From positions 124,001-188,000 of the forward strand of contig NZ_JARUXC010000004.1 of the NCBI RefSeq assembly GCF_030433855.1: a stretch of 64,000 nt of DNA, written 5' to 3'. Source of the DNA: Agreia sp. PsM10. Its GTDB lineage: Bacteria; Actinomycetota; Actinomycetes; Actinomycetales; Microbacteriaceae. The translations under genes and the position numbers were made by a program. This document shows positions 7,211 through 26,816 of the stretch, one piece after another. Under the pieces are notes generated by a model, which saw only the letters and a program-made list of their open reading frames with translations, was not told the origin of the DNA and made no database searches. Position 1 is the stretch's first letter, and each line of letters begins with the position of its first letter.

Positions 7211-7297
7211 GCCTTGATCATATGATTTTTCGACTTATTCTCAGCGTATGAAAATTCAGGTACGGGAACGCAACACGCCCCCGTCTTGACTTGCCTC
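7211..7297. promoter_or_regulatory. Divergent vanRS / vanHAX promoter region
   Basis: This 87-base spacer separates the vanR and vanH start codons. It is AT-richer than its surroundings near 7215-7255 (around ATATGATTTTTCGACTTATT) and must hold both promoters and the VanR sites. I could not identify clear -35/-10 boxes or repeated VanR sites by eye. Confidence 0.5.
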
Positions 7298-8341
7298 ATG
7301 ACACACCGCCATCGGGCCCGTACAGCGGCCCTCCATCATGTAGGCAGTCACTCCGCCTCAACCCCCACGTCTTCACAGCCCACTCGTCTCACCGTCTTCG
7401 CGTGCAGTTCGTACGAAGCAGCCTTGTTCCGCGGAATGGCGACTCGATTCAGGGTCGAGCCGATCGTTTCTGAGCGACCATTCTCAGCGGCGACCGCTGC
7501 TTTGGCTGCAGGCAGCCGGTGCATCAGCGTCAACCACACAGCACAGATCTCCAATGCAACTCTTTGGGAACTCAGCCTGGCGGGGGTGGAGTACATCTCC
7601 ACGCGAAGCATCGGTACCGACCATCTCGATGTGGGATATGCGCAGGATGTGGGGATCACCGTAGAGAACGTCGGCTACTCACCTGACAGCGTCGCGGACT
7701 ACACGCTGATGCTGATTCTCATGGCCATCAGGGATACCAAATCGGTGCTACGGCGAGTTGACGCGCGGGACTACCGCCTTGGTGAGGTGCGGGGTACGGC
7801 TCTTCGCGACCTCACGGTGGGCGTCATCGGGACCGGCCGCATCGGTACGGCGGTCATGCACCGCTTGCAAGGTTTCGGGTGTCGAGTGTTGGCCTATGAC
7901 ACCCGGCCCCGTGCCGAGCATGACTACCTGCCCCTGGACGAGCTGCTGCAGCAGAGCGATCTCGTCACTCTGCACACGCCGTCGACCCCCGCCAACCATC
8001 ACCTTCTTCACCGAAGCCGCCTCGCCCAGCTACCGGACGGCGCCTTTGTCGTGAACACCGCTCGGGGAGCACTGGTTGACACCGATGCTCTTCTCGACGA
8101 ACTGGAAAGCGGTCGCCTCGGAGGCGCTGCACTTGACGTCGTGGAAAACGAAGAGGGCGTTTTCTATGCCGATCATCAGAACGCACCTGTGGTGCGCGAC
8201 CAACTCGCTCGTCTTCAACAACTACCCAACGTGGTGATCAGCCCTCACATCGGTTTCTACACGGAGCGCGCTCTCAGCGACATCGTCGAGAACAGCCTCA
8301 TCAATTGCGCACGATTCGGAAGCAGAAGACACCATGGATAA
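7298..8341 (+). CDS. vanH: VanH D-lactate dehydrogenase (pyruvate to D-lactate)
   Basis: This NAD-dependent D-2-hydroxyacid dehydrogenase supplies D-lactate for the VanA-type ligase. The Rossmann fingerprint GVIGTGRIGTAV is followed by NTARGALVD (substrate-binding Arg, about residue 256), the DVVENEEG acidic motif and SPHIGFYTE (catalytic His, about residue 317). IGTDHLDVGYAQ and VGYSPDSVADYTL are characteristic of VanH rather than of general lactate dehydrogenases. I chose ATG 7298; a TTG 12 bases upstream is less likely. The first 35-40 residues are an unusual low-complexity lead before the family's normal start. The stop overlaps the vanA start by 8 bases, implying translational coupling. 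Confidence 0.9.
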   Translation: MTHRHRARTAALHHVGSHSASTPTSSQPTRLTVFACSSYEAALFRGMATRFRVEPIVSERPFSAATAALAAGSRCISVNHTAQISNATLWELSLAGVEYISTRSIGTDHLDVGYAQDVGITVENVGYSPDSVADYTLMLILMAIRDTKSVLRRVDARDYRLGEVRGTALRDLTVGVIGTGRIGTAVMHRLQGFGCRVLAYDTRPRAEHDYLPLDELLQQSDLVTLHTPSTPANHHLLHRSRLAQLPDGAFVVNTARGALVDTDALLDELESGRLGGAALDVVENEEGVFYADHQNAPVVRDQLARLQQLPNVVISPHIGFYTERALSDIVENSLINCARFGSRRHHG

Positions 8342-9568
8342 ATTGACAATCGGTATTATCTTCGGCGGAGTTTCTGAGGAACACGACATCTCTGTGAAGT
8401 CTGCCCTGGAAGTGGCTGCGCACCTCGACCTGAGCAAGTACTCACCGGTCTGGATCGGGATCACCAAGACGGGAGCCTGGACTCTCTGCGAGGCCCCGCG
8501 GGAGGGCTGGGACAACGGCTCCGGACCTCAGGTAGCCTTGTCGCCTGACAGATCGACTCACGGTCTGCTGGTGCTGGACGGCGAGCAGTATTCGACCATC
8601 ACTCTCGACGTGGTCTTTCCCGTTCTGCACGGAACGCTCGGCGAAGACGGGGCCATCCAGGGGCTGCTCGAGCTTTCCGCACTTCCTTATGTCGGGTGTG
8701 GGATTCAGGCGTCCGTGCTGGCCATGGACAAATCTCTCGCTTATACGGTGGCGCGAAGTGCAGGGATTTCGACACCGGGCTACTGGGTGGCCGAGCCTCA
8801 CGACGAGATCCACCCAGATCAGTACTCATACCCGGTGTTCGTGAAGCCGGCACGTTCTGGTTCGTCCTTCGGGGTCAGCAAGGTCGACGACAAACAGCAG
8901 TTGCTCAAGGCAGTCGAGGTTGCCAGAGAGTTCGACTCCACGGTTCTGATCGAGGAAGCCATCATCGGGGACGAGATTGGATGCGCAATGCTGGGTGCTG
9001 GGCGCGACTTTCTTGTAGGCGAACCCGACAGGGTGGCACTAACCAGCGGCTTCTTTCGGATCCACCAAGAAGCCAAGCCCGAGCAAGGCTCGGCAAACTC
9101 GACGTTCGTGGTTCCAGCAGATATCTCTCCAGAGAATCGGGGGGGGGGGGGGGGGGCGGCCGCCCCCCGCCCGCCCCGCCCCCCCCCGCGCCCACGCGCC
9201 CGTCCCCCCCGCCCGCCCACCCCCACCACACCAACCCCCCCACCCACCACCCGCACCACAACAAACCAACCCCCCACAACGGCGCCCAAAACGCGCGTTG
9301 GGGGTTACCACAATATAACACCCCAGATAGGGGGGGGCGGGGCCCGCCCCCCCCCGAAACGGTCTACCGAGCGTTGGGATGTCGTGGGCTTGCGCGAGTG
9401 GACATGTTCTTGAAGCACGACGGAACGATCGTTCTCAACGAGGTCAACACACTCCCTGGGCTGACCTCATACAGCCGATACCCGCGGATGATGGCCGTAG
9501 CAGGAATCACCCTGTCTGAGATCATCGACCGACTTGTGGCCGTGGCCTTAGGGGGAGGCGAGCGGTGA
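8334..9568 (+). pseudogene. vanA: VanA-type D-alanine--D-lactate ligase, interrupted by a low-complexity patch
   Basis: The frame from ATG 8334 encodes the N-terminal and central ATP-grasp parts of a D-Ala-D-Lac ligase: FGGVSEEHDISVKSA, VGCGIQASVLAMDKSL, YPVFVKPARSGSSFGV and FFRIHQEAKPEQGSAN, about 268 residues. At 9139 the sequence turns into G and C runs. From 9362 the native protein resumes in another frame with VYRALGCRGLARVDMFLKHD and ends EIIDRLVAVALGGGER at 9568. VanA needs only about 10 residues between these parts, yet 223 bases are present. As given, the gene is split and frameshifted. If the patch is an assembly artefact the true gene is intact, which I think more likely because flanking and downstream reading frames are well preserved. 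The stop overlaps vanX by 4 bases. Confidence 0.88.
9139..9361. other. Low-complexity G/C patch inside vanA, probable assembly artefact
   Basis: The stretch begins with a run of about 17 G, continues as C runs broken by single A, G or T (CCCCACCACACCAACC-like text), and ends with further G and C homopolymers. It encodes nothing plausible, has no transposase, terminal repeats or target duplication, and replaces about 30 bases that the ligase family requires. Poly-G tails from two-colour sequencing, joined to poly-C from the opposite strand, would look like this. A real expanded low-complexity insertion is the alternative. Confidence 0.75.
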
Positions 9569-10173
9569 GACACGGATTTGCGTTCATTGATGAGAGTGCC
9601 CCCGGCATTCGGTGGGATTCCAAATACGCCACGTGGGACAACTTCACGGGAAAGCCAGTCGATGGCTATCGCGCCAATCGGATCGTCGGCACGCATGAGT
9701 TGTGCGCAGCCCTCACCCGTGCGCAAGACAAGGCTGTCTCCTTGGGCTTCGGCATCCACCTCTGGGATGGATACCGCCCCCAGCGCGCCGTGGACTGCTT
9801 TGTCCGTTGGTCTCACTCGCCCGACGACGGGAGAACAAAGCTCCGCCACTATCCGCGTATCGATCGCCCGGAGATGTTCGAGCAGGGATACGTGGCCACC
9901 CAATCCGGTCACAGCCGAGGAAGCACAGTCGATCTGACTCTCTACGACCTGGCCACCCTCGAACTCGCCCCGATGGGCACCGACCACGATGTCATGGATA
10001 CCCTCTCCCACCACGGAGCCGAAGGCATTGCCGACGAGGAGACAGCCCACCGGTCCCTTCTTCGCTCGGTGATGGAGGACGTCGGCTTCACGGCATACGA
10101 GCGGGAATGGTGGCATTACACCTTGGCTGAGGAGCCATACCCCGATACCTACTTCGATTTCCCCATCTACTAG
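9565..10173 (+). CDS. vanX: VanX D-Ala-D-Ala dipeptidase
   Basis: This zinc dipeptidase destroys D-Ala-D-Ala so that only D-Ala-D-Lac precursors reach the cell wall. At 202 residues it is the normal VanX length, and every catalytic position falls on the classical numbering: R71 (DGYRPQ), zinc ligands H116 and D123 (SGHSRGSTVD), catalytic E181 and zinc ligand H184 (EREWWHY). GTG 9565 overlaps the vanA stop as GTGA, so translation is coupled. The intact active site argues that the pathway was functional until recently and that the vanA patch is not ancient decay. Confidence 0.95.
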   Translation: MRHGFAFIDESAPGIRWDSKYATWDNFTGKPVDGYRANRIVGTHELCAALTRAQDKAVSLGFGIHLWDGYRPQRAVDCFVRWSHSPDDGRTKLRHYPRIDRPEMFEQGYVATQSGHSRGSTVDLTLYDLATLELAPMGTDHDVMDTLSHHGAEGIADEETAHRSLLRSVMEDVGFTAYEREWWHYTLAEEPYPDTYFDFPIY

Positions 10174-10183
10174 GGATCGACAT

Positions 10184-10454
10184 GGCTCGCGTTCGCGTCT
10201 TCTCTTCGATGAGGCCATCCAAGATCATGGCATTTCGACCAAGGCCGCCAGATGGGTCAAAAGAGGCGACAAGTTAGAGCACGTTACCGGTGACGCAATC
10301 GATCTGAAAGACCAAGAAGCTGGGGATGGATGGACGAATTCGGGGAGCCAACGGTCTCTGTCGTGTTTATGAAAATGAGCCCGGGCACTTCGAGTTGACT
10401 GCCGAGCTCAATGAAACATGCCCTCCGGTGATCGCAGATGGCTCCGCAGGTTGA
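10184..10454 (+). pseudogene. vanY: vanY-like D,D-carboxypeptidase remnant (peptidase M15), truncated and frameshifted
   Basis: Directly after vanX one frame reads LLFDEAIQDHGISTKAARW and LEHVTGDAIDLKDQEAGDGW. A second, from about 10335 to the TGA at 10452, reads GANGLCRVYENEPGHFELTA and then ELNETCPP. A short WMDEFG segment in the third frame links them. Together they spell the C-terminal half of an actinobacterial VanY-type carboxypeptidase, including the zinc-site pattern (HVTGDAID) and the final NEPGHFEL. The N-terminal half is absent and at least two frameshifts are needed, so the gene is dead. It would have trimmed terminal D-Ala from pentapeptide precursors. From 10455 to 10652 I see no gene. 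Confidence 0.75.
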
Positions 10455-10652
10455 TCGGCGGTCGAGAGCCGTGCGCGGCGGATGTTCCGACTGCAGTACG
10501 AGACGCCCAATCGTGTAGTAGGTCCCTCCGGCACGCTCGGCAAGACAATCTCGTTATCGAAGAATTCGATTCAACAGGTTCCCGATCAGATGTTGCTTTG
10601 ACCGGTTGAATACGGCCAAATTCCCATTACCAACGCCGAGGAGGCACCTTCC

Positions 10653-11999
10653 ATGAGTAAACCCGAACCGGACGATCCGCTGACGCCGCTCGACGAGCAC
10701 CTCTTCAGCGAGACGCGCCCCACTCCGCTGTCTCGTCGTCTTCCCCGAAAGCGGCTGTGGGTCGTCGGCCTATCTGTCACGGTCATTGCCGTCATCCTGG
10801 GTGTCGTCGTGCTCGTCGCGCACCCGTTCGCGCAACAGCCCGCCGCGAAGATTGCGACCGCCACGGTCGAAACAGGCACTGTCACGACGACAGTCGAGGC
10901 AAAGGGCGCGATCACTGCGGCCGCAACGTCGAACGCATCGTTCTCAAACCCCGGCACCATCACCGGCATCTCTGTGACCATCGGTCAGCCGGTCGTCGTC
11001 GGACAGGACCTGGCGACGATCGACTCAGCCGACGCCGATAGGGCGCTGGCAAAAGCACAGGGCGCCTTGGGGGCGGCTGAGACCGCACTCGACAATTCAC
11101 GTGAGTCCTATTCAAATACGGCGACCGATCTTGCGAACGCTCGGGCGACTCGCGATGCCACACCAGCGGACTCTCCTGACTATTCAACTGCTGTTGCAGC
11201 CGTCCGCGAACTAGAGAATGCTCTGCCACTCAGAGACACCGACGTCGTGAATGCAGTGAACACGCGAGACGATGCCTCGCGAGACGTCGATGCTGCGCAG
11301 GCCGAACGCGATAAAATGGTGTTAAAAGCATCGATTGCGGGTGTCGTCACAGCGATCAACGGCACCGTCGGATCCGTGACCACCGGAGGCGGCAGCTCGA
11401 GCGGTTCCGCAGGATCGCCGGGAGAGTCCGGCTCGGGCGCAACGGCGGGGAGCGCTACCACCGGCCCTAGCGGATTGATAACAATTTCGGACACGTCGTC
11501 GCTCTTCGTGTCGGCCGCCATTCCCGAAGCCAGCATCGGCACAGTGGCCCCAGCGCAATCAGTGACAGTCACCATGGCCGGAGATTCGACAGTCACGATG
11601 TCAGGATCGGTCGTCTCTATCGCCCCCACACCACAGACGAACGCCGCCGGAATCGTCACTTTCGCTGCGTCGATCCAGCTCACCACCCCGCCGGCAACGG
11701 TGAGGATTGGAGAAACCGCATTGGTCAGCATCGTGACAGCCAGCGCGGTCGATGTGCCGACTCTGCCGATGTCTGCCGTGACGATGACCGGCCCCGGCGA
11801 AGGAACAGCGCAGTTGGCGCCGAGGAAGAAATCTGACACGGACGGCAAGATCGTGCCTATCAAGGTAGGCCTCTCCGGGGACGGAGTCGTGGAGATCACA
11901 CACGGTCTCGCGGTCGACGATGTCGTACAGATCGCAACGCCGTCTGAGGATGGTATGGGCGATGGCGCGGACGGCTCCAGCGGCAGCGAGGGTTTCTGA
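10653..11999 (+). CDS. MacA-like periplasmic-adaptor-type (HlyD/MFP) subunit of an ABC exporter
   Basis: The 448-residue protein has a cytoplasmic N-terminus of about 40 residues, one transmembrane helix (about 44-66), then a barrel-sandwich lipoyl half (FSNPGTITGISVTIGQPVVVG), an Ala/Asp-rich coiled-coil hairpin (about 125-220) and a second lipoyl/beta-barrel half (VVTAINGTVGSVTTGG). A Gly/Ser loop of about 30 residues is inserted in the barrel. ATG 10653 follows GAGGAGG. In actinobacteria such adaptors work with MacB-type transporters outside the membrane. It overlaps the ATPase gene by one base, so the three genes form one operon. Substrate is unknown; position beside vanHAX suggests envelope or antibiotic stress. 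Confidence 0.85.
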   Translation: MSKPEPDDPLTPLDEHLFSETRPTPLSRRLPRKRLWVVGLSVTVIAVILGVVVLVAHPFAQQPAAKIATATVETGTVTTTVEAKGAITAAATSNASFSNPGTITGISVTIGQPVVVGQDLATIDSADADRALAKAQGALGAAETALDNSRESYSNTATDLANARATRDATPADSPDYSTAVAAVRELENALPLRDTDVVNAVNTRDDASRDVDAAQAERDKMVLKASIAGVVTAINGTVGSVTTGGGSSSGSAGSPGESGSGATAGSATTGPSGLITISDTSSLFVSAAIPEASIGTVAPAQSVTVTMAGDSTVTMSGSVVSIAPTPQTNAAGIVTFAASIQLTTPPATVRIGETALVSIVTASAVDVPTLPMSAVTMTGPGEGTAQLAPRKKSDTDGKIVPIKVGLSGDGVVEITHGLAVDDVVQIATPSEDGMGDGADGSSGSEGF

Positions 12000-12706
12000 T
12001 GACCGTGCGAGACACGGCCATCACCCTTCGGGCAGTCCGACGCGAGTATGGGAAGGGTGAGAGCATGGTATCTGCCTTGGACGGCGTCGATCTCGTCGTG
12101 CCTTCCGGTGAGTACCTCGCCGTCGTGGGCCCGTCCGGCGCAGGAAAATCCAGCCTCCTCAACATTCTGGGTTGTCTCGACCAACCGAGCTCTGGGTCGT
12201 TGGAGATCGGAGGTCGTCTCGTTTCGGACCTTCCCGAAAAGAAAGTGGCTTCCATCCGGAACACGGAGATCGGATTCGTTTTTCAGTCGTTCAACCTCAT
12301 TCCTTCGCTCACGGCACTCGCCAACGTCGAACTCCCGATGGTCTATGCCGGTGTCGGCCGCATCGAGCGGCAGAACCGTGCCCAGGCTGCTCTCGGACAG
12401 GTCGGTTTGCGGGGCAGAGAAAGGCATCGCTCGAATCAGCTTTCCGGGGGGCAACAGCAGCGTGTCGCTGTTGCGCGCGCCATCGTGAACCGACCGACTT
12501 TCATCCTCGCTGACGAACCCACAGGCAATCTCGATTCGCACGCAACAGAAGATGTACTGACCATCTTCGACGAATTGCATGGTGGGGGCGCGACAGTCAT
12601 TGTCATCACTCACGAAGATGAGGTGGCTGCGCGCGCGCAACGGGTCATCGTGATGCGAGACGGCCGAATTGAACGCTCCTACCGAAACGAGAAGGTGACA
12701 TCGTGA
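11999..12706 (+). CDS. MacB/LolD-like ABC transporter ATPase
   Basis: This 235-residue nucleotide-binding subunit shows Walker A (GPSGAGKSS), Q-loop ([22 protein letters not shown]), signature ([14 protein letters not shown]), Walker B ([11 protein letters not shown]) and H-loop ([11 protein letters not shown]). The FNLIP segment after the Q-loop and the short length place it in the MacB/LolD/FtsE group that works with four-helix FtsX-type permeases. It would power the adaptor and permease encoded on either side, overlapping the permease gene by four bases (GTGA). Confidence 0.92.
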
Positions 12707-13893
12707 GTCCGCTGGACCTCGTCGCCGCAGCCGTTCGAAGCCTGCGAGGCAATCTCACCCAATCGATTCTGACAACCCTGATGGTCCTGATCGGAGTCGG
12801 TTCCGTGATCACACTCGTGGCCGTGGGCAATGGGACGACCGCGCAGGTGAACGCGCAGGTCGCCTCGCTCGGAGCAAGCGCCATCTACGTCAACCCGGCC
12901 ACGGATGACCAGGGATCAATATCTACTCCTCTCACGCGGGCAGATAGAGACTCCCTCGCCTCGGACCCTCTCGGTACCGCCATCGGTCTCGTCGCACCAA
13001 TCGTGTACGGGAACTCCACGGCCAGTGCTGGTTCAGTCTCCGCCTCCCCGCAAATAATGGGCACGACACCGGACTTTTTTTCAATCACGAACGCGAAGCT
13101 CAGCGCTGGTCGATTCTTTACAACATCGGATGCACTCACCAACCAGAGTGTTGCAGTCATCGACGAAGGATTGCAGATGGCGCTCTTGCCCGACGGGTCT
13201 TCTGCGGTGGGCCAGACGATCATTGTCGCCGACACGCCGACTCTCGTCATCGGGGTTCTGGCCCCGACAGCCATCGACGCGATGTACGGGATGGCCAGCG
13301 GCGGCACCGCCTACGAGCCGATCGACCACGTCGAAGCGATCATCACGGGCTACAACGACCTCGGTTCGATTGCCCTCAGCGCCACGAGTCCTGACACAGT
13401 CGACGCAGCAGAGTCGCAAGCGGCAGCGATCCTCGCGGCACGCGGCGAACCGACGCCGTACTTCTCTTCATCGGATGAGCTGCGCGAAACGCTGGGCGGT
13501 ACCCAAGAGAGTCTCAGCAACCTGTTGTCGAGCGTCGCGGCAATCAGTCTGCTCGTGGGAGGAATCGGGGTCACCAACGTTATGTTGCTCACCGTTCGGG
13601 AACGCACCAGAGAGATCGGGATTCGAAAGGCTCTCGGCGCTCAGCCCATCTCCCTGGCGGGCCAGTTCGTGCTTGAAGCGACTGGTCTGAGCATCATCGG
13701 TGGCGCGCTCGGCGTCGCCGGCGCACTGATCGCGACCCTCTTTCCCGTTACCGGCGTCATGCCCATCGTTGACGTCCCCACCATAGGTCTGGCGGCCGGG
13801 ATTTCGATCGCCATCGGAATCTTTTTCGGCACCTACCCTGCGGTGAAGGCGGCGCGGATGAATCCCGTGGCGGCGCTGCGCGTGGGCGCCTGA
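12703..13893 (+). CDS. MacB/FtsX-type ABC transporter permease
   Basis: The 396-residue protein has the MacB plan: one N-terminal transmembrane helix (about 20-42), a large extracellular MacB-PCD-like domain (about 45-265), then three C-terminal helices. The ISLLVGGIGVTNVMLLTVRERTREIGIRKALGA motif, present in two shorter pieces either side of the third helix, is diagnostic of FtsX permeases. GTG 12703 overlaps the ATPase stop. These permeases act as mechanotransducers rather than classic channels, moving peptides, lipids or antibiotics at the outer face. The convergent surface-protein gene runs into its 3' end. Confidence 0.9.
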   Translation: MSPLDLVAAAVRSLRGNLTQSILTTLMVLIGVGSVITLVAVGNGTTAQVNAQVASLGASAIYVNPATDDQGSISTPLTRADRDSLASDPLGTAIGLVAPIVYGNSTASAGSVSASPQIMGTTPDFFSITNAKLSAGRFFTTSDALTNQSVAVIDEGLQMALLPDGSSAVGQTIIVADTPTLVIGVLAPTAIDAMYGMASGGTAYEPIDHVEAIITGYNDLGSIALSATSPDTVDAAESQAAAILAARGEPTPYFSSSDELRETLGGTQESLSNLLSSVAAISLLVGGIGVTNVMLLTVRERTREIGIRKALGAQPISLAGQFVLEATGLSIIGGALGVAGALIATLFPVTGVMPIVDVPTIGLAAGISIAIGIFFGTYPAVKAARMNPVAALRVGA

Positions 13894-13989
13894 TGTGAGA
13901 TGGATGTCGCCGGCGGAAAGAGCGCGATCATCGCAACTATCCGCGCAAGAGGAATGAAGCGCCACGAGAGTTGAACGACGGTCTGGTTG

Positions 13990-14700
13990 CATATCCGTAA
14001 CGTTCGCGACGTTGCTGTCGCCGCTGCTGCCTGAACCGATGGTGACTGTAAAGACGTTCGTTGACGTGACCGTAGCCTGGCCTGGGTCGTACCAAATCAC
14101 GAGCGAGGTTGTGGTCGCGCTTGGGGCAAGTCCCGAATACTCATACTGCACATACTCATCGCCGGGGTTCCCTCCGCCGATGAGAGTCCAGCCGGCACCC
14201 GCAGACACGATGGTCGGCGTCATCCAAGATGCGTACTCAAGGAACAACGTGATCGGTCCAGTTGCGGGTGCACCATTGAGTTCAGTCATAGTGAAGGTGG
14301 CCGTCGTGGGGGTGCCGAACGCAACCTCGGCTGGCGCCACAACACTCGGGGTGAAGTCTGGTTCAATGGCCGGCGGGACCGTCGGAACGGTCGTTTCGGT
14401 AGGCACTGGAGTGGGCGACGCTGACGGCAGGGTTGTTGATGAGGACGTGGACGCGACGGGACACGGCGCGGCCTGCGCTGCAGGCGTTAGCGCGGTACCA
14501 AGCGCACCGCCGCCAATCAGGAACAATGCGACGTGTCCAACTGCAGCGAACGCACGCTTCCGCATTCGTCGAGACACGGCCCAGAATGCAACGCCGCCTA
14601 CAAGGCCAACCGCGGCGATCGTGAGAGGAATCCAGGCATCTAGGTCTGTAGACGAGAGATCGAGTGAGGGGTCAAAGGCCCACCACCTTTCGACCGGCCG
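13990..14700 (-). pseudogene. Paralogue of the 4436 surface protein, probably damaged at both ends
   Basis: The minus frame carries the same architecture as the gene at 4436: a first helix (DAWIPLTIAAVGLVGGVAFW, then SRRMRKR), a second helix ending TPAAQA/APCP, a Ser/Thr/Pro linker and a beta domain with PATGPITLFLEYASW (compare AATGPITVFVEYPLF). No start codon precedes the first helix; the frame runs back into the aldo/keto reductase 3' end. A GTG at 14577 would start at the second helix and still give a signal peptide. At the other end, after SSGDSNVANVT (about 13990), homology stops and the frame continues antisense through the permease gene until 13468. Both boundaries look like recombination scars. 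A shortened secreted protein starting at 14577 may still be made. Confidence 0.6.
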
Positions 14701-14733
14701 ACCCCGAACTACCGGAGAGGCCTTCGCAGCGCC

Positions 14734-15690
14734 TCAGCTCCAGGGGCGGGCGGCGCGGGCTTCCCAGTACTTTTCGGCAGGTTCGGCCAGTTCGGCCAGG
14801 CGCTCCTCGTCGAGCGAGGGCGCCCGCGCCTCGAGGTTCTGCTTGAGCTGCTTGCGGGTCACCGCCCCGGTCAGCACGATGTCGGCCCACGGATGCGCCA
14901 CGGCCGCGCCGATGGCCAGCCCGTCGAGGCGCTGCCCGTCTTCGGCGGCGAGCGCGGCGGCGGCCGTCTCTTCGCCGCGCGATGTCAGCCGCCCGTTGGC
15001 CAGCACCTCCTTGACCACGACGAGCCACTTGGCATCGTTCGCCGCGGTGAGCGCCTCGCCCACCGAGGGCTCGAGCAGGTTCCAGGTGGACTGCACGGCA
15101 GAGAACGGGGAATCGGCCAGGCCGAGCGCGCGCTCGATGACCTCGGCCTGCGCAGGCCCGCTCGTCGAGAAGCCCACGCGCACGCCGCTCTCCCGCAGGG
15201 CGCGCAGCCTGTCGAGAAGCGCGCCGTCGTCGAGGGCTGTGCTGTCGGAGGTCAGCGAGTGCACGAGGTACACGTCGGGTTCTGTGCCGAGCGCCGCCTG
15301 CGTCTCGGCCCACTGCCGCTCGAACATCGCGAGCGAATGCTCCTTGCGCTCCTGCTGCGGCGCGTCGAGGCGCCAGTCGCCGGTGTACTCGTAGCCCCAC
15401 TTCGATCCGATGGTCAGTTCGTCGCGATACCCCGGATGCGCGGCCAGCCACGATCCGAGGAACTCCTCGGCGCGCCCGTACGAGCGCGCCGCATCGACGT
15501 AGCGGATGCCCAGCCACCACGCGGCATCCAGAAGTTTGTGCGCCCGCTCGCGTATCGCATCCACGCTGCGATCGGCACCCTCGCCCAGGTCTTTCGCGCG
15601 CCCGCCGGTGATGTACGCGGGGCGGCCGATGGCGGCGAGTCCGAGCCCCAGGCGCGATGCGATGCTGTCTTCGATGTCGATGTCATCCAC
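14734..15690 (-). CDS. Aldo/keto reductase
   Basis: This NADPH-type aldo/keto reductase shows the TIM-barrel landmarks: YVDAARSYGRAEEFLGSWL (catalytic Asp and Tyr), IGSKWGYEY (catalytic Lys) and DVYLVHSLT (the His position). It probably reduces a sugar aldehyde or related carbonyl. GTG 15690 (reading VDDIDIEDS) is the likely start; the frame is open another 11 codons upstream. A piece of a second copy of its 3' end lies at 3501-3645, so this gene marks the right edge of the van island. The partner of the neighbouring genes is not evident. Confidence 0.85.
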   Translation of the reverse strand: MDDIDIEDSIASRLGLGLAAIGRPAYITGGRAKDLGEGADRSVDAIRERAHKLLDAAWWLGIRYVDAARSYGRAEEFLGSWLAAHPGYRDELTIGSKWGYEYTGDWRLDAPQQERKEHSLAMFERQWAETQAALGTEPDVYLVHSLTSDSTALDDGALLDRLRALRESGVRVGFSTSGPAQAEVIERALGLADSPFSAVQSTWNLLEPSVGEALTAANDAKWLVVVKEVLANGRLTSRGEETAAAALAAEDGQRLDGLAIGAAVAHPWADIVLTGAVTRKQLKQNLEARAPSLDEERLAELAEPAEKYWEARAARPWS

Positions 15691-19869: not shown

Positions 19870-19923
19870 CCATTATCGCGGCACTCGCTGGTCGCGTGAT
19901 CTGCGACGGCTGCGCTGATTGAA

Positions 19924-20232
19924 TTGGCCGCCGCTCCGAACGCTGACGAAAAGCTCTACGTAGCGTGCAAGTCCAGCATGAGTGAACCGCGATTGCATGG
20001 GATCAGCGTCAACGATCTATCGGCCCGCAATGTCGAGGTAGGCGAGCCTCCTGACACGTTCGTGGGCCTGCGCTTCGATGCGATCGACTTTGCAGGGCGC
20101 GACCGGTCTGTTGGCAGTCAGTTCGGAGAGCGCGCCTCCGACGGCGTCAAGCGCGCGACGCGGCGTGGCGCGGGGCAACGTTATCTGCCGCCGACTCGCC
20201 TCACTGAGGGGCTGAAGGCCGACCCGGTGTGA
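19924..20232 (+). pseudogene. Pentapeptide-repeat protein remnant (5' part)
   Basis: The frame reads PRLHGISVNDLSARNVEVGE, then TFVGLRFDAIDFAGRDRS. It parallels the N-terminus of the intact pentapeptide protein at 26154 (PRLDAIRLDDLVAGDPETL, then VYEGLRFEGADLSGRDLS). After about 60 residues the similarity fades and the frame ends at TGA 20230-20232. Only the 5' portion survives. It lies at the left edge of the less GC-rich three-gene operon, so it was probably cut when that DNA arrived. Confidence 0.6.
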
Positions 20233-20284
20233 TCGAAGGAGATCTACAAGCCCATGCCAGCAGGCGGCTCGGGCAATCGAATGA

Positions 20285-20377
20285 CTGGCGGGTGCGGCGG
20301 TGTTCTTGACGTCGTATGCGTCGAATTACATTGACGGCAATCTCCTGTTTGTCGACGAATGCCGCTTCGGGCGGTGA
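20285..20377 (+). pseudogene. Short-chain dehydrogenase 3'-end remnant
   Basis: The frame from 20285 reads LAGAAVFLTSYASNYIDGNL and then LFVDECRFGR before TGA 20375-20377. This is the recognisable C-terminal pattern of SDR enzymes (A-A-V-F-L-A-S-D-A-S-x-Y-I-x-G-x-x-L-x-V-D). A stop codon lies just upstream in the same frame, so nothing of the rest remains. It is a second broken gene in the same gap, indicating repeated recombination here. Confidence 0.5.
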
Positions 20378-20542
20378 GTCTAAATTTGCCTGACCACGTA
20401 ATTATCGGCAATAGAGGCGGGCATGATCCGCGGAGGAGCGGTGTGCCGAGATAATCTCGCACTCGCAGGGGGACCGTCAGGGGTCCGCATCTAGAATCGA
20501 CGTGACTACTAGAGTTTCGTTTGAGGGTTGGGAAAACAAATC

Positions 20543-21181
20543 GTGACGATAAGTGCAGCGGCGTCGGTAATGCCTCAGCTTTCGGGGGACGAGTCCTCCG
20601 ACTGCAAATTCTGCGCCCTTCATTCATTCGAGCCTCTCCTGCTCGAATCACGTTCGGGATCCCTGGTTCCTTCTGTTGGGTCTATGGTCGAGGGCTGGCT
20701 TCTTGCCTTTCCCGCCGTCCATGTTCTCTCGTTAGCCGATCTGAGTTTCGACGACTGGGATGGTTTCTCGGAACTTCTAGAGAATGCTCGCTCCTTGTTG
20801 CGGGGTGCCTATGGATCGACGGTCATGTTTGAACATGGGTCAGCGGGCGTCGGCAGGCTTGCAGCGTGCGGGGTCGATCATGCGCACATGCATTTAGTGC
20901 CTCTCGACATTGATCTCAGAGCAGCGATTTCTAATCTGGCCGGCGAACTCGGTGAGTTTGAATGGACTCGGATCGAGGGCCGGGTCGAGCCAATAGCCGA
21001 GGAAGATTACATCTTCATAAGTGATCGAACGGGCTCTTGGGTAACGCGTAGCTCTCACCTTCCGAGTCAGGTGGTGCGTCGTGCAATTGCGCTGGAGCTC
21101 GGCATTTCTGAGTGGGACTGGAAGAAGGACGCGCGGCCAGGAACTGTATCCTCGACGCGTGCTCGGCTCAGGGACATCTAG
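20543..21181 (+). CDS. HIT-superfamily nucleotide-hydrolase-like protein
   Basis: This protein of about 212 residues carries a Cys pair near the N-terminus (CKFCALHS, a zinc-knuckle-like start seen in some HIT proteins) and the family's histidine triad DHAHMHLVPL near residue 113. HIT enzymes transfer or hydrolyse nucleotidyl groups. The C-terminal third after the triad (about 90 residues, ending KKDARPGTVSSTRARLRD) is longer than in stand-alone HIT proteins and may bind a partner or ligand. I chose GTG 20543; TTG 20528 is possible. It is the first gene of a tightly packed three-gene operon (the next start abuts its stop) that is less GC-rich than the flanking genes. Physiological role unknown. 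Confidence 0.75.
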   Translation: MTISAAASVMPQLSGDESSDCKFCALHSFEPLLLESRSGSLVPSVGSMVEGWLLAFPAVHVLSLADLSFDDWDGFSELLENARSLLRGAYGSTVMFEHGSAGVGRLAACGVDHAHMHLVPLDIDLRAAISNLAGELGEFEWTRIEGRVEPIAEEDYIFISDRTGSWVTRSSHLPSQVVRRAIALELGISEWDWKKDARPGTVSSTRARLRDI

Positions 21182-21829
21182 ATGTCCGCGGGCGAATCGG
21201 ATCCCGTACCTGAGGGAGTACCTCCAAAGGGAAACGCTTCTGCCCCTGCCGAGGACGTTCCAGGTTTCGCGCCAGATGAGCCCACGGATGAAAGAAAACT
21301 CGGTGACTGGCGTTCGAGATACTGGGAAAAATCCGCTCGGCGAGCAATTCAGATTGAGGCTGCTTTCGTTTGGCTGTGTTTATCCGGCACGATAGCCGGC
21401 ATTCTGTTCGCGGCGATTATCTCGACGATGCCGGATCAGATCGTCCCATCGCAGACGTGGGAGTCGCTATCTCCATTTGTTCTGTCCTACCTAGGCGGGC
21501 TGTTGGGTGGAACGCTCTTTTCGATGAAATGGCTTTACCACACCGTCGCGAAAGGCCTGTGGAACAGGGACCGCAGGCTTTGGCGAATCTTCACGCCATT
21601 TCTCTCGGGTGGTGCCTCCCTAACGGTTATCCTGCTTTGCGCCTCAGGTGCGATCCCTTTATTCGGTCCTGAGCTAGTCAGAACGAACGTTGGTGCGCTG
21701 GGGTTGTCAGTCGTGTTTGGCTACTTCTCGGATCGCGCATTCAGCAGCTTGGAGCGGGTTGCCGAAGACAACTTGGGGCTCGCGCGTAAACGTAAGGCCA
21801 CTGGTCAGCAGAACGCGAAGGAGAAATGA
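21182..21829 (+). CDS. Four-helix membrane protein, function unknown
   Basis: This 215-residue protein has a charged, Pro-rich cytoplasmic N-terminus of about 60 residues and four predicted helices: about 61-83 (AAFVWLCLSGTIAGILFAAI), 97-118 (FVLSYLGGLLGGTLFSMKWL), 140-163 (FLSGGASLTVILLCASGAIPL) and 170-190. It ends in a basic tail (ARKRKATGQQNAKEK). No catalytic motif is visible. ATG 21182 starts directly after the HIT gene stop, and its own stop overlaps the next start by four bases (ATGA). Co-translation with a HIT protein and a PEP-synthase/MazG fusion suggests the membrane component of one system, perhaps its effector or anchor. That role is inference. Confidence 0.7.
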   Translation: MSAGESDPVPEGVPPKGNASAPAEDVPGFAPDEPTDERKLGDWRSRYWEKSARRAIQIEAAFVWLCLSGTIAGILFAAIISTMPDQIVPSQTWESLSPFVLSYLGGLLGGTLFSMKWLYHTVAKGLWNRDRRLWRIFTPFLSGGASLTVILLCASGAIPLFGPELVRTNVGALGLSVVFGYFSDRAFSSLERVAEDNLGLARKRKATGQQNAKEK

Positions 21830-24261
21830 CAGAAAACACGCATAACCCGCGCAGCCTTTTTCTTTCTAGTCCGTCGCTGTCGGCCAACGAGTTCAGGCTG
21901 GCCGAGGTATCAGAGGCTGGTGGCAAAGGTGCTGGGCTACTTCGGTTGTCGCCGAATTGGTATCCGGAAACTCTGATTGTTGGTCCGCACGCACACCGCA
22001 TGTACCGAGCTGGTGACATAACAGCAACGTTTGCGTCAGATTCCGAAGACAGGGAGCGTCTTGAGCATGTCCTGTCGCGGATGACCTCGCATACGAGCTC
22101 GAAGCGCATATTTGTCAGGAGCTCCGCGGCGCGGGAAGGGGTCTCAGAGCGGGGTAAGTACGAATCCGTTACGGCCGAAGCCTCTGCAGCAAGCATGCAG
22201 GAATCGATCGTGGCAATGTGGAAGTCGGTCGGACTTGAAAATGACCTCGGCGTCGTCGTCCAGCCATTCATCAATGTGAAAGTTCGGGGGCACCTTTCCA
22301 ATGAACATCGCGTGAGTCGTGATACGACGTCCTGGGTTTCGGAAATGTTCGTTGGAAATCAAGGCACTACTCAGACCTGGCGAGTGACGGGCGCTGTGCC
22401 AGCAGGCGATGGTGCGCTCATGTGCCCGAATGTGCGATCGATCGAAAAAGTTCTTCGTGGTGCAGCCAAATTACTCAGCGGTCTCCCTTTCCGTCATCAC
22501 CTCGAGTGGGTCTGGGATGGCGAGCGTATCTGGGTGGTGCAAGCCGACCGCGTGCCGCCCACAACCGGCAATGCGCCTGGAGACGCGTGGTCGGCCCGGC
22601 GAGGGGAGAGCATCGACCAGACAAGCCTCAATGTTTGGGCAGAGCTCTCGGGAGATGTCCTGGCAGACTCGACGGGCTGGGATAAGGCGGGCGCCCTTAG
22701 GAAATTCTCGGACTCTGGCCTGCCAGTAGCGCGAGTTTGGATACTCGAAGGTGCCCAAATCATTAATTCACTAAACGGTGATGAGGTAGTGCCAGGTCTC
22801 GTAGAAGATCTCGCACTGTTGGCGTCAGGACACATAGTCGTTCGAACCGATGTTCGTGGTGCTGGCGCGCAGCTAATGCTTCCAAAGACCGGTACAGAAT
22901 CGGATCCTGTCGCTATAGAGGCTTTCTTGAGGCAGACCTGTTCCAGCCTGATCGCCGCTGGCGTCGGCCCGGAGAATATTGCTTTTCTTGCTCATCGCTA
23001 TTTGCGGGCAAGAGCTTGCGCTTGGAGTCTCGCCTATCCGGACCAGGCATTTGTAGAGATTGACAGCATGTGGGGCACGCCGGATGGGCTCGCCTGGCTT
23101 CCGCACGACAGCGCTTGGGCCAATGTGGATACCGGTGAGGTGTGGCGCTCGATTGAGGGCAAAACAAACTTCCTCGACATCGATGAGCACGGAACATGGA
23201 CATACCGTGAATCGCCGACGGAGTGGATATGGCGGGCAAGTATGTCTGAGGATCAGATACGCAACGTGGCGGCAGGGGCCTCCCGCTTAGCAAAGCAAGC
23301 AGGAGCACCAGTTCTTACCATGTGGTTCATTGGCATTCTCGAAGGCGCGGATGCAGAGTACTTACCGTGGTTTCAGCAGATTCGTGACGCGGATGAAGCC
23401 GACGTGCGAGGTTCAATATCGCCAGCCAAGGATCGCCGGACAGTGACGACCACCGAAGAGCTAGATAGCGTGGGTCGAGATGCTGGCCCGAGCTTCAAGG
23501 TCCTTCGAATTGTCCCCGGACCTGACCTAGTTCGAGATAAGGACTTTGTGACGAAGGTCATAGAAGTGGCCACCAGTAGGGACCTGACCGTGGAGCTCGT
23601 TGGGAGTCCTCTAGCTCATCCTTACTATCTAATTCGTCGCGCTGGAGTAGCAGTAAGTTGTGTGAGCCAATTCGAACAGCCACTCACAATTCATAACAAA
23701 TTGGTGCGGGACAACATCGTTGATCAGATCGAGTCGAATGGAGAGGTAGTCGTTTCGTACCGGGCAGCAGGAACTGAGAGGACGCGCCTGCTGCGGCTAA
23801 AACTTGTCGAAGAATCGCTCGAACTGCTCCGCGCTGCGACAACCGAACAAGCCACAGACGAGATAGCCGATGTCGAGGAAGTGCTCGATTCACTTAGGGT
23901 TGCGCTTCGCGTTCGAAGGTCGGATGTTCGCGAGAGACGCGCTGAAAAGCGGACGGTCAGGGGAGGCTTCGATGAGGGCCTTGTACTCGTAAGTGCTGGA
24001 AGGCAGACCTCGGATTCCGACAACGAGTTAGATGGGTTCGATGATGCAGGTCCTAGTCGCCGCCCGTGGCAAGTACAACAGCATCTGGACAAGATCATCC
24101 TCAGTGCCTTGCCGCCGGTTGCAGGAGAGCAGCAAACATATGTCTTGAAGCTTGGCGACCGGTCAGTCCGCATTGTTTACAGGGGTGCCCGAATCGAGAT
24201 TAGCCAAGAGGGCGAAACAAAATCTGAGCCCGGAGATGAGTTGCTCTTCCTCGACCTCTAG
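21826..24261 (+). CDS. PEP-synthase-like ATP-grasp protein fused to a MazG-like NTP pyrophosphatase domain
   Basis: The 811-residue protein begins with a PPDK/PEP-synthase N-terminal ATP-grasp module: VSEAGGKGAGLLRL (about 28-41), FVRSSAAREGVSERGKYES (about 96-114), VVVQPFI, and HLEWVWDGERIWVVQADR, with the expected Arg, Glu and Gln. A second grasp-like segment follows (IVVRTDVRGAGAQLMLP, then EIDSMWGTPDGLAWLPHDS). I see no normal TLSHAAI-type phosphohistidine domain, though AHPYYLIRRAGVAV near 600 could be a remote version. From about residue 624, NKLVRDNIVDQIESNGEVV and LVEESLELL, ELADV-like EIADVEEVLDSL match the all-alpha NTP pyrophosphatase family (COG4997/MazG-like). About 120 further residues are unrecognised. 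Comparable stand-alone proteins exist for each half; I do not know this fusion. It may act on a nucleotide or antibiotic. Confidence 0.7.
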   Translation: MTENTHNPRSLFLSSPSLSANEFRLAEVSEAGGKGAGLLRLSPNWYPETLIVGPHAHRMYRAGDITATFASDSEDRERLEHVLSRMTSHTSSKRIFVRSSAAREGVSERGKYESVTAEASAASMQESIVAMWKSVGLENDLGVVVQPFINVKVRGHLSNEHRVSRDTTSWVSEMFVGNQGTTQTWRVTGAVPAGDGALMCPNVRSIEKVLRGAAKLLSGLPFRHHLEWVWDGERIWVVQADRVPPTTGNAPGDAWSARRGESIDQTSLNVWAELSGDVLADSTGWDKAGALRKFSDSGLPVARVWILEGAQIINSLNGDEVVPGLVEDLALLASGHIVVRTDVRGAGAQLMLPKTGTESDPVAIEAFLRQTCSSLIAAGVGPENIAFLAHRYLRARACAWSLAYPDQAFVEIDSMWGTPDGLAWLPHDSAWANVDTGEVWRSIEGKTNFLDIDEHGTWTYRESPTEWIWRASMSEDQIRNVAAGASRLAKQAGAPVLTMWFIGILEGADAEYLPWFQQIRDADEADVRGSISPAKDRRTVTTTEELDSVGRDAGPSFKVLRIVPGPDLVRDKDFVTKVIEVATSRDLTVELVGSPLAHPYYLIRRAGVAVSCVSQFEQPLTIHNKLVRDNIVDQIESNGEVVVSYRAAGTERTRLLRLKLVEESLELLRAATTEQATDEIADVEEVLDSLRVALRVRRSDVRERRAEKRTVRGGFDEGLVLVSAGRQTSDSDNELDGFDDAGPSRRPWQVQQHLDKIILSALPPVAGEQQTYVLKLGDRSVRIVYRGARIEISQEGETKSEPGDELLFLDL

Positions 24262-24314
24262 GCGTAGGCGCTGAATCGAAGAGATTTCGGTGAGTCACTG
24301 CGTCCGGAGATTGT

Positions 24315-24884
24315 TCATTTTGGGGTTAAGGGATTCAGCACCCTCGAGGTCGACTCGATGAACACGCGGCGCAGGGTCTCGCGGGGGATGCCCTCGATCG
24401 CGGGGTTCACCGCCGACACGAGCAGGCCGCCGCCCGCCAGCGCGAGCGCCGCCCGGGCCTCGGGAGCGGGCTGGGCTCCGATCAGCAGCGCATCGAGTCT
24501 GCTCGCGAGAGCCCGGAACTCCGTCGCCTCCTCGAGCTCGCGCCCCACCTGCGGATCGCGCTGCATCGCCGCCGAGAACAGTCGGTTGTCGAGCACGAGG
24601 TCGACGAGTCCGGCGAGCGCGAGGTCGAAGCGTTCCTGCGCGCTCGAACCCTTCTCCGCCTCCGCCGCCACGCGCTCCATCTGCGCGAGCGCCGGGGCCG
24701 CCACCGCGAGCACGATCTCCGACTTCGAGTTGAACAGGTGATAGACCGCGGCCTTCGTCACGCCCAGCGAGTCGGCGATCATCTGCAGCGACGTGCCGTT
24801 CACCCCGTGCTGCGCGAAGAGCGCGAGCGCGGCCTCGAGCAGGCGCGAACGGCCCTCTCCCCGCGGTGCCACGGGCCTGCCCAT
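24315..24884 (-). CDS. TetR-family transcriptional regulator
   Basis: The N-terminal TetR helix-turn-helix is clear: RSRLLEAALALFAQHGVNGT, then LQMIADSLGVTKAAVYHLF. The remaining 130 residues form the ligand-binding helices. ATG 24884 (MGRPVAPRGEG) is the likely start; the frame is open to a TTG at 24968, inside a perfect 22-base palindrome that is surely its operator. It is divergent from a medium-chain dehydrogenase gene that it probably represses. Ligand unknown. Confidence 0.88.
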   Translation of the reverse strand: MGRPVAPRGEGRSRLLEAALALFAQHGVNGTSLQMIADSLGVTKAAVYHLFNSKSEIVLAVAAPALAQMERVAAEAEKGSSAQERFDLALAGLVDLVLDNRLFSAAMQRDPQVGRELEEATEFRALASRLDALLIGAQPAPEARAALALAGGGLLVSAVNPAIEGIPRETLRRVFIESTSRVLNPLTPK

Positions 24885-24966
24885 ACGCTGCGCCTTCCGG
24901 TCGGATGCTCGTGGGCGCGTCGGTCGGAACGCCCGTTCTGAGAGTAGCCCGGGAGTCGGCGCATCC

Positions 24967-24988
24967 AAGATAGCCGATCGGCTATCTT
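24967..24988. promoter_or_regulatory. Perfect 22-base palindrome, probable TetR operator
   Basis: The arms AAGATAGCCGA and TCGGCTATCTT abut without spacer to make an exact palindrome. It lies in the divergent gap between the TetR gene and the dehydrogenase, 49 bases before the latter's ATG, where binding could silence both promoters. Confidence 0.75.
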
Positions 24989-25037
24989 TACATCATTCGA
25001 CTACCCGTCATCCAGCCCCACGCCCGAGGAGAACCGC

Positions 25038-26081
25038 ATGTCCGACCTGTCCACCACCCCCGCTTCGATGGCGCTCTCGATGGTCACCGGCCCCGGCCAG
25101 ACCTCCGTCGTCGAGGTGCCCGTGCCCACCGCCGGGCCCGCCGACGTGCTGGTCAAGATCCGCGCGTGCGGCATCTGCGGCTCCGACGCGATGTACATCG
25201 CCATCGGCGGGCTCCCCGGTCGCGAGGGCCGGACCCCGCTCGGCCACGAACCCGCCGGCGAGGTCGTGGCGGTCGGCAGCGATGTTGTCGGCGTGAGCGT
25301 GGGCGACCACGTGGTCGTGAACCCCATGGCGGCGCCATCCGGAATCATCGGCTCGGGCGGTGCGACCGGCGGAATGGCCGACTACCTGCTCGTCGAGAAC
25401 GCGGTCGTCGGAACGAGCCTCGCGATCGTGCCCGACCACATCCCGTTCGAGGTCGCTGCGCTCAACGAGCCGATGGCCGTGGCTCGGCACGCCGTCAACC
25501 GCACCCGGCCCAAGCCGGGCGACAAGGTCGTGATCTTCGGCGCGGGTCCCATCGGGCTGGGCGCCGCCATCAGCTACATGGCCTTGGGCGTCGAGCACAT
25601 CGTGGTGGTCGACGTGATCGCGTCCCGCCTCGAGAAGGCCCTGCAGATCGGGGTGGATGCCGTGGTGAATTCGGCAGAGGAGGACCTGGTCGAGCGGCTG
25701 GTCGCCCTGCACGGCGAAGGACCGGCGCGTCGGGGAGTGCGGAAGCCGGCATCCGACATCTACCTGGATGCGACGGGCGCGGCCCCGGTGGTGAAGGCCA
25801 TTCTCGGCGCGGCGAAGCACGGGGCGACGCTGGGCATCGTGGGAGTGCACAAGAAGCCGGTCGAGGTCGACTTCGGCGAGCTGCTCGGCTCGGAGCTGAC
25901 CATCGTGCTGTCGATGGGCTATCCGACCGAGATCTTCGAGGTGACCCAGGACATCATCGCCAACTGGCAGAAGTACGCGGTGATCGTGAGCGACGTGTTT
26001 CCGTTCGCCGACGTGCAGCGAGCATTCGAGGTCGCCGCGACGCCGGGCGCGGCGGACAAGGTCGTGGTCACCTTCGACTGA
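25038..26081 (+). CDS. Zinc-type medium-chain alcohol dehydrogenase
   Basis: The 347-residue MDR protein shows CGICGSDAMYI (catalytic zinc Cys), GHEPAGEVVAVG (catalytic zinc His/Glu) and the NAD(P) fingerprint VVIFGAGPIGLGAA. The four-Cys structural zinc loop of classical members is missing: the corresponding segment reads VNPMAAPSGIIGSGGATGG. It resembles sorbitol, threonine or butanediol dehydrogenases, but the substrate cannot be fixed. ATG 25038 has GAGGAG upstream. The neighbouring divergent TetR gene and the palindrome between them suggest induction by the substrate. Confidence 0.88.
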   Translation: MSDLSTTPASMALSMVTGPGQTSVVEVPVPTAGPADVLVKIRACGICGSDAMYIAIGGLPGREGRTPLGHEPAGEVVAVGSDVVGVSVGDHVVVNPMAAPSGIIGSGGATGGMADYLLVENAVVGTSLAIVPDHIPFEVAALNEPMAVARHAVNRTRPKPGDKVVIFGAGPIGLGAAISYMALGVEHIVVVDVIASRLEKALQIGVDAVVNSAEEDLVERLVALHGEGPARRGVRKPASDIYLDATGAAPVVKAILGAAKHGATLGIVGVHKKPVEVDFGELLGSELTIVLSMGYPTEIFEVTQDIIANWQKYAVIVSDVFPFADVQRAFEVAATPGAADKVVVTFD

Positions 26082-26153
26082 TCGCGAGGCCCATCCGTTG
26101 CCTAGACTTCTGCGGGGCGGCCCGTGCGGCCGCCCGCAGGAGAGAGGCTGATC

Positions 26154-26816
26154 ATGGCGCGCAAGCCCGGTACACAGGCACCCCGATTGGATGCGATCAG
26201 GCTCGACGACCTCGTCGCTGGCGACCCCGAGACGCTCCGGTCGCACGACGTCTACGAGGGCCTGCGCTTCGAGGGCGCCGACCTGTCCGGCCGCGACCTG
26301 TCGGGCGTCCAGCTCAGGGAGTGCGCGTTCGACGATCTGCAGGCGCACGATGCCTCTCTGCGCGGGGCGACGTTCGCCGACGTCGAGATCCATCGGCTGA
26401 ACGCGCCCATCTTCTCGGCCCCCAGGGCGGAGCTGCGCTCGGTCACGATCGACGGATCGCGCCTCGGCTCCGCCGAGCTGTACGAGTCAGCCCTCTCGTC
26501 GGTGCACATCTCGTCGACCAAGCTCGGCTTCGCCAACCTCTCGGGAGCCAACCTGCTCGACGTGCTGTTCACCGGATGCTCGATCGACGAGCTCGACCTG
26601 AGCAGCTCCAAGCTGAACCGCGTGGCGTTCGTCGACTGCACGATCGGAGTGCTGAGCCTCAACCACGCCACGCTGCAGAACGTCGACCTGCGTCGCGCCG
26701 AGCTCTCCCGCCTCGACGGGTTCACCGCCCTCGCCGGGGCGACGCTGTCGAGCGGCCAGGTCGCCGACCTGGCGTCGTCTTTCGCCGAGCACCTGGGCAT
26801 CCGCGTCGAGGACTGA
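26154..26816 (+). CDS. Pentapeptide-repeat protein
   Basis: After a 30-residue lead the 220-residue protein consists largely of pentapeptide repeats (A/S-D/N-L/F-S/R-G type), for example GADLSGRDLSGVQLRECAF, LGFANLSGANLLDVLF and LQNVDLRRAELSRLDG, which would fold as a right-handed quadrilateral beta helix. Some family members mimic DNA and protect gyrase; most have no known function. ATG 26154 follows AGGAGAGAGG. A broken relative of its first 60 residues lies at 19924. A REP palindrome follows the gene. Confidence 0.85.
   Translation: MARKPGTQAPRLDAIRLDDLVAGDPETLRSHDVYEGLRFEGADLSGRDLSGVQLRECAFDDLQAHDASLRGATFADVEIHRLNAPIFSAPRAELRSVTIDGSRLGSAELYESALSSVHISSTKLGFANLSGANLLDVLFTGCSIDELDLSSSKLNRVAFVDCTIGVLSLNHATLQNVDLRRAELSRLDGFTALAGATLSSGQVADLASSFAEHLGIRVED

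Follow-up and report, generated by a model that had tools for sequence, protein, structure and literature searches.

The window analysed here, a stretch of 64,000 nucleotides from Agreia sp. PsM10, carries a compact three-gene operon of 3.7 kb that encodes a histidine-triad (HIT) protein, a small membrane protein (TM) and an 811-residue fusion protein with a MazG-type domain (PM). The three genes are co-inherited as one tightly packed set in four distant records. Because the trio is kept together in distant bacteria, and often beside defence genes, it looks like an undescribed immune operon. Judged from the sequences, the chances are about even that it is a mobile, nucleotide-based anti-phage (or anti-mobile-element) operon with a membrane effector. 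The operon genes and the domains of PM are as follows.

20543..21181, + strand: HIT gene, 212 aa, CwfJ/CWF19-like type (profile matches, conserved triad)
21182..21829, + strand: TM gene, small membrane protein, 215 aa (hydropathy; homologues in the equivalent operon position in 3 other records)
21826..24261, + strand: PM gene, 811-aa fusion of two PPDK_N-like ATP-grasp modules, a linker and a MazG/PRA-PH domain (profile comparison, alignments)
21826..22611, + strand: PM module 1, PPDK_N-like ATP-grasp, residues 1-262 (hhalign, alignment, PRK05849)
22612..23415, + strand: PM module 2, PPDK_N-like ATP-grasp, residues 263-530 (hhalign, alignment, Pfam in L009)
23683..24000, + strand: MazG/PRA-PH-like nucleotide pyrophosphohydrolase domain of PM, KLVRD...EExxE...ExxD (motif, Pfam in homologues)

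The original prediction had placed the three genes in this order on one strand with abutting or overlapping junctions, and the coordinates of the open reading frames (ORFs) and the start and stop positions match it. The HIT gene starts with the GTG at 20543 (an in-frame TTG is also present at 20528), its TAG stop at 21179-21181 abuts the TM ATG at 21182, and TM and PM overlap by the ATGA at 21826-21829. The lower guanine-plus-cytosine (GC) content that had been noted is borne out as well: HIT, TM and PM have a GC content of 0.56-0.57 compared to 0.69-0.71 for the surrounding Gfo/Idh, TetR, alcohol dehydrogenase (ADH) and pentapeptide-repeat genes, and a GC content at third codon positions (GC3) of 0.57-0.61 compared to 0.87-0.92 for the flanking genes. 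A promoter scan gave no promoter-like sites (1.5 expected), while a terminator scan gave 9 terminator-like sites (3.5 expected), each of them within genes or at gene edges. None of the three window proteins had a Pfam match above the cut-off, and the NCBIfam scan of the trio resulted in a single weak match, that of PM to PRK05849.

The complete trio was found in identical order in three further records: a genome of another genus in the same family (G258), a Solirubrobacterales metagenome-assembled genome (L009) and a plasmid of Caulobacter rhizosphaerae (L010). The identity of HIT, TM and PM to the window proteins was 48%, 52% and 44% in G258, 34%, 34% and 30% in L009, and 29%, 34% and 25% in L010, respectively. 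The identities of the three proteins drop in one shared order (with a tie for TM), as is expected if the genes travel together, and adjacent genes overlap, abut or sit one base apart in all four trios. That three other records keep the trio and its order at 25-52% identity strongly speaks against chance. The claim that the genes form one operon is upheld by this conservation, but is qualified by a variant that occurs without TM and MazG.

Full-length PM was recovered from 2 of the 398 genomes drawn from the family (5 matched, 3 of them via the MazG part only), from 1 of the 396 drawn from the phylum (4 matched, 3 via the MazG part only), and from 2 of the 396 drawn from the order; the draws partly share genomes, and scoring was limited to the top candidates in each genome. 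Within the class to which L009 belongs, PM matched 2 of 279 genomes, the second being the shorter variant described below, and the class of G439 was represented by a sample of 3 genomes only. TM matched a single phylum-draw genome of the 396, the window's own. Among 72,556 plasmid records, PM and TM (window and Caulobacter queries) each matched solely the Caulobacter record, and the Caulobacter HIT matched 3 records. Window PM and HIT had no match among 50,697 phage records, and scans of IMG/VR with A1 (PM), A2 (HIT) and A3 gave 7, 41 and 35 pattern stretches, respectively, with no confirmed relative; a phage origin of the operon was rejected for these reasons. One scan of genome contigs relied on a single-protein query and was insensitive. 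Homologues scattered singly were the outcome that the original prediction had named as speaking against it. This was not the case for TM and PM, since TM was matched only together with PM, but it does hold for HIT, which has relatives without these partners.

Outside the window, strong defence neighbours were found at three of four loci (Hma, type III restriction-modification and BREX) and weak ones at the fourth (nSTAND/HNH). In L009, HmaA and HmaB (PADLOC E=0) are encoded 0.6-0.8 kb downstream of PM on the same strand, and a large ORF behind them lies at the HmaC position, as judged by eye. A type III restriction enzyme (Res, PADLOC E=0) lies 1.6 kb from the G258 trio and is followed further out by an AlbA-domain gene, a partial type III methylase (9e-69, C-terminal half, profile positions 298-620 of 621) and a helicase whose best match is the HKD+Snf2 model C3a139 (1e-121). 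In the genome G1313, the variant is preceded at a distance of 2.6 kb by pglX-pglZ-brxL of a BREX system (1e-142, 5e-81 and 4e-216), and an ORF that by eye is transposase-like separates the two. The Caulobacter plasmid carries nSTAND3 and HNH genes nearby (Pfam 1.8e-14 and 2e-7), along with a GNAT-PIN gene. Of the genomic signs of a defence system, the trio shows patchiness and mobility; its neighbours are strong at three and weak at one of the outside loci. The search for relatives at varying locations near defence genes, which had been suggested as a check, bore out the varying location and the defence genes beside the relatives, but none was seen among the ORFs scanned at the window.

Two proteins flanking the Caulobacter operon were recorded in addition. 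On one side, L010 11735-13591 encodes a 618-aa protein that is annotated as an S-adenosylmethionine (SAM)-dependent methyltransferase and has no Pfam match, and on the other side L010 17477-19618 encodes the GNAT-PIN fusion, which has a weak PDC-M11A match.

The operon is horizontally mobile. At the window it lies in an inserted segment, the further features of which are listed below.

19875..26097, no strand: inserted segment with remnants, operon, TetR and ADH (3 genus-mates lack it at the Gfo/Idh - pentapeptide junction)
19960..20172, + strand: pentapeptide-repeat gene remnant, decayed 5' part (tblastn 45% over 73 aa to the G140 copy)
20194..20374, + strand: short-chain dehydrogenase (SDR) remnant, decayed 3' part with an in-frame stop (tblastn 71% and 63% pieces)
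24315..24968, - strand: TetR regulator (named by eye, native GC)
25038..26081, + strand: zinc ADH (named by eye, native GC)

A Gfo/Idh match was present in 6 of 8 genus genomes, the window's own included, and absent from two. The site was read in four relatives with a Gfo/Idh identity of 86-96%, and G343 (40%) was left out. In three of these genus-mates (L030, L031 and L032) the site is empty, and the Gfo/Idh gene (ending at 19869 in the window) adjoins the pentapeptide-repeat gene (26124-26816 in the window). The closest relative, L029, has another insert, some 6 kb long, at the equivalent spot (9762-15674); by eye it encodes an ABC transporter and an SDR. The empty site in three of the four loci and the other cargo in the fourth indicate a variable site and not a core one, and the insert in L029 makes the junction appear to be an insertion hotspot. 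A core location of the operon is rejected by the empty sites, so that conservation at one core location in all relatives, the other outcome named beforehand as adverse, did not come true. The two broken genes noted beside the operon were confirmed by tblastn as the pentapeptide-repeat and SDR remnants. TetR, which matched 1 of the 8 genus genomes (the window's own), and ADH share the insertion with the operon but probably lie outside the system. The GC content of the trio is 0.09-0.13 below that of the left flank in three of the four trios, and the Caulobacter trio is plasmid-borne. At the strict limit, 2 of the 79 genomes of its genus, G258 included, have a match to the aldo-keto-reductase neighbour in G258, and the other genome aligned in that gene alone.

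Elsewhere in the window, positions 5416-10218 hold a cluster of lower GC3 that by eye resembles vancomycin-type resistance (VanS-, VanR- and VanH-like genes, then a further ORF). A D-Ala-D-Lac ligase-like protein (by eye) is encoded within it at 8334-9413.

The variant beside the BREX genes of G1313 (L071, 10088-15152) consists of a 715-aa ATP-grasp protein, followed by a 726-aa AAA ATPase and then a HIT protein (14481-15152). The 715-aa protein is 29% identical to PM across both ATP-grasp modules and is without MazG motifs, and a search for TM at this locus gave no match. Since the AAA ATPase occupies the place of TM, TM and AAA look like swappable output or regulatory parts around a core of HIT and the double ATP-grasp protein. 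HIT is the most widely shared part, and TM or AAA and MazG look exchangeable. On plasmids, the sole match of the variant ATP-grasp protein was the Caulobacter record. The AAA ATPase matched 36 plasmid records, mostly in the AAA domain alone among the 20 matches listed; a domain so widespread on plasmids is not a specific marker for the variant. A Parabacteroides plasmid (L019, 2283-6988) has a putative nucleotide-enzyme module in the order ThyX - AAA - HIT - PRA-PH. Its AAA protein is 29% identical to that of G1313 over 393 aa (3e-44), and its HIT protein was matched by A2 with an hhalign probability of 99.4%.

A second recurrent HIT partnership was observed on Streptomyces, Lactococcus and Rhizobium plasmids (L018 5369-8669, L066 4441-7737, L065 4754-7461 and L067 3923-8499), where a HIT gene related to that of Parabacteroides adjoins cysteine-desulfurase-like (aminotransferase class V) genes. 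On the Rhizobium beringeri plasmid pRlX4 (L072, 4588-7358), a DUF4406 gene directly follows the gene of an AAA ATPase that is a relative of the L071 one (34.5% identity over 27% of the latter).

The HIT protein belongs to the HIT superfamily by its HxHxH triad and by its fold as recognised from sequence. The triad, HAHMH, is encoded at 20879-20893, and H60, H113, H115 and H117 are identical in all four trios. The best match of the A2 profile to a solved structure was CWF19L1 (E 8.9e-6), other HIT structures were matched as well, and Pfam HIT/CwfJ_C_1 matched two of the four trio HIT proteins under the cut-off. TM contains the conserved motifs KWL.H..A...W..DR..WR and GYF.D. Hydropathy analysis of the window copy gave 2 stretches above threshold (56-88 and 136-167), each able to hold more than one helix, and the homologues gave 3 stretches in L011, 2 in L009 and 4 in L010. 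A four-helix membrane protein, as had been predicted, is plausible by hydropathy, but only the Caulobacter copy shows it clearly. A known fold was also sought for TM and rejected, as matches to sequences of solved structures were at chance level only.

Profile comparison indicates that PM is better read as two tandem PPDK_N-like ATP-grasp modules followed by a MazG domain. Against a PPDK_N alignment of 16 sequences from related genomes, modules 1 and 2 had hhalign scores of 46.9 and 46.2, respectively, compared to maxima of 24.7 and 20.6 for 60 column shuffles and of 18.3 and 14.2 for the reversed target. With a fifth sequence added, the scores were 44.3 and 54.0 (shuffle maxima 21.7 and 21.1), and the same comparison scored PM residues 515-811 at 14.5 and TM at 15.2. 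The weak PRK05849 match covers residues 76-150 of module 1 in the window copy, and in L009 Pfam PPDK_N matched module 2 at 396-491 with an E-value of 3.9e-5, which does not reach the curated cut-off. Both modules can therefore be placed with the PPDK_N ATP-grasp proteins as remote relatives. Several results weigh against the two-module reading: the two modules match each other weakly in a direct comparison (score 27.3, E 0.005), full-length A1 matched a single PpsA with an hhalign probability of 0.9%, and A1 compared with PDB sequences at E<=1 matched MazG-type structures only and no PEP (phosphoenolpyruvate) synthase or PPDK structure. In terms of individual residues, module 1 keeps a Glu and a Gln that align with those of PpsA (E227 and Q239 of PM) and has D241 in place of the PpsA R, while module 2 has M499 in place of the PpsA E; by analogy with PPDK, these would be ATP-site residues. 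Module 2 is probably degenerate.

The swinging-His PEP-utilizer domain had no Pfam match in PM, and the region 520-622 scored 12.4 against a His-domain alignment of 4 sequences only, below the shuffle maximum of 16.6. The motif GSxLxHPYY, matched by eye to a swinging-His motif, failed its control, and PM as a true PEP synthase was ruled out because neither a His-domain nor a barrel match was obtained. As for the MazG domain, EExxE...ExxD is the metal-binding motif of MazG/PRA-PH enzymes. PM carries it, with E662, E663, E666, E679 and D682 identical in all four trios. Pfam PRA-PH matched PM in three of the four trios, the window copy giving no match at E<=1, and the PM linker of L011 had a weak SepF match (E 0.0021, below cut-off). 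The predicted PEP-synthase/MazG fusion is thus supported in its MazG half, but its other half is better read as two PPDK_N-like modules, and the PEP-synthase His domain was undetected. By alignment, the catalytic residues of both HIT and MazG are kept, and the earlier view of nucleotide-type enzymes combined with a membrane protein is supported.

We infer a defence role for the operon, and the following mechanism is put forward as a hypothesis. PM would bind ATP upon phage infection, and its module 1 may act on a small substrate by phosphorylation or ligation, or sense the nucleotide pool, module 2 being a copy for regulation or binding. Hydrolysis of the nucleotide product by MazG and HIT could then set or reset its level, and TM would be the effector that disturbs the membrane and halts the infected cell (abortive infection). 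More specifically, the operon may represent a new class of immune operon in which a double-ATP-grasp 'dikinase-like' protein and a CwfJ-type HIT make or sense a phosphorylated nucleotide signal that is unused by CBASS, Thoeris and Pycsar, with an exchangeable membrane effector or AAA protein and an optional MazG that erases the signal; this extension is tentative and rather unlikely.

A number of observations count against the anti-phage interpretation. A known PADLOC-listed defence system was rejected because the trio proteins are without a PADLOC match (0 families each at E<=1 for the window proteins). At the window, no defence gene was found among the 8 of 44 other ORFs that were scanned from a crude list of 47 ORFs, the immediate neighbours being named by eye only; two scanned ORFs had any match, one of them being an ABC-transporter ATPase by its sequence and the other having a weak match only (1e-4, LolE-like part). 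The PADLOC matches of the Caulobacter plasmid neighbours were weak only, and the L009 trio shows no GC anomaly. The evidence comes from only five loci in all, the variant included. The suggested membrane-effector and signalling steps are drawn by analogy, and HIT relatives also occur in metabolic- or biosynthetic-looking clusters.

The last of these points gives rise to the main rival explanation, namely that the trio is a small cassette for biosynthesis or nucleotide salvage. PM would be an ATP-grasp ligase or dikinase, MazG and HIT would tailor an intermediate, TM would provide export or immunity, and shared accessory islands would explain the defence neighbours. HIT relatives adjoin cysteine-desulfurase-like, DCD-like, ThyX, PRA-PH and (named by eye) anthranilate-phosphoribosyltransferase-like genes in clusters on Streptomyces, Lactococcus, Parabacteroides and Rhizobium plasmids. 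PPDK_N proteins include ligases, and one of the four PM members has a weak NCBIfam match to PigC (E 0.068). However, TM and PM were not seen within the metabolic HIT clusters, each of the four outside loci lies close to defence or defence-like genes, and the operon has three genes only, with carrier, tailoring and transporter families unmatched in Pfam and NCBIfam. We regard such a cassette as unlikely.

A direct attack on the nucleotide pool appears unlikely as well. MazG and HIT would destroy (d)NTPs or cofactors on infection, with the PM ATP-grasp part as sensor or regulator and TM as a mere membrane anchor. The intact catalytic residues of MazG and HIT are consistent with this, as is the fusion of MazG to ATP-grasp modules in all four trios, but the BREX-side variant keeps the ATP-grasp protein and HIT without MazG and TM, which suggests that MazG is not the essential effector. 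It is improbable that the trio is just an accessory set whose genes share no function, be it toxin-antitoxin-like, phage-derived or neutral cargo. The trio is rare and patchy and a metabolic insert occupies the equivalent site in G140, which speaks for this reading; however, order and tight packing are kept at 25-52% identity between Actinomycetota and an alphaproteobacterium, the phage records gave no match for the window PM or HIT, and the IMG/VR scans gave no confirmed relative.

If the trio is indeed a defence operon, bacterial immunity would gain ATP-grasp chemistry of the PEP-synthase type and a HIT enzyme resembling CWF19, and TM would be a newcomer that is unmatched in Pfam, in PADLOC and, above chance, among the sequences of known structures. 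The variant beside BREX, where AAA was found and TM was not, offers a natural test of the core (HIT and double ATP-grasp) against the output parts, and the operon is compact enough to be cloned whole.

In comparison with known systems, PM resembles the PEP synthase/PPDK family (PRK05849) in that both of its modules are distantly related to PPDK_N, and it differs in having two modules in tandem without a barrel or His-domain match, a MazG domain near the C-terminus, and M for the PpsA E in module 2. Like MazG/PRA-PH pyrophosphohydrolases it carries the EExxE...ExxD and KLVRD motifs; unlike the known ones, the domain is fused behind two ATP-grasp modules and encoded in an operon with a membrane protein. 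The window HIT shares HxHxH and the C-terminal eWDw region with the CwfJ/CWF19 branch of its superfamily, in contrast to which it is a stand-alone bacterial protein of 212 aa within a three-gene operon. The Parabacteroides cluster (L019) resembles the window operon in encoding a MazG-type enzyme adjacent to a HIT protein from the same subfamily, and its AAA protein is homologous to that of the G1313 variant; it differs in that neither TM nor the double ATP-grasp protein is among the genes shown.

No description of such a three-gene operon was found among the open-licence PubMed Central papers searched, as judged from titles and the beginnings of abstracts. Unlike Thoeris, the trio has no TIR, SIR2 or macro match in Pfam (E<=1) or PADLOC, and ATP-grasp and MazG are unmentioned for Thoeris in the accessible portions of the two papers cited here. 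On the other hand, the HIT protein ThsC accompanies 2.4% of Thoeris systems, which are named Thoeris type II (PMC8565338), and the window operon resembles this type (ThsA, ThsB and ThsC-HIT) in having a HIT protein within a putative defence operon. A second paper describes a TM-macro ThsA in which a nucleotide clusters the membrane effector (PMC11204291), and by analogy the proposed nucleotide of the window operon may likewise act on a membrane effector.

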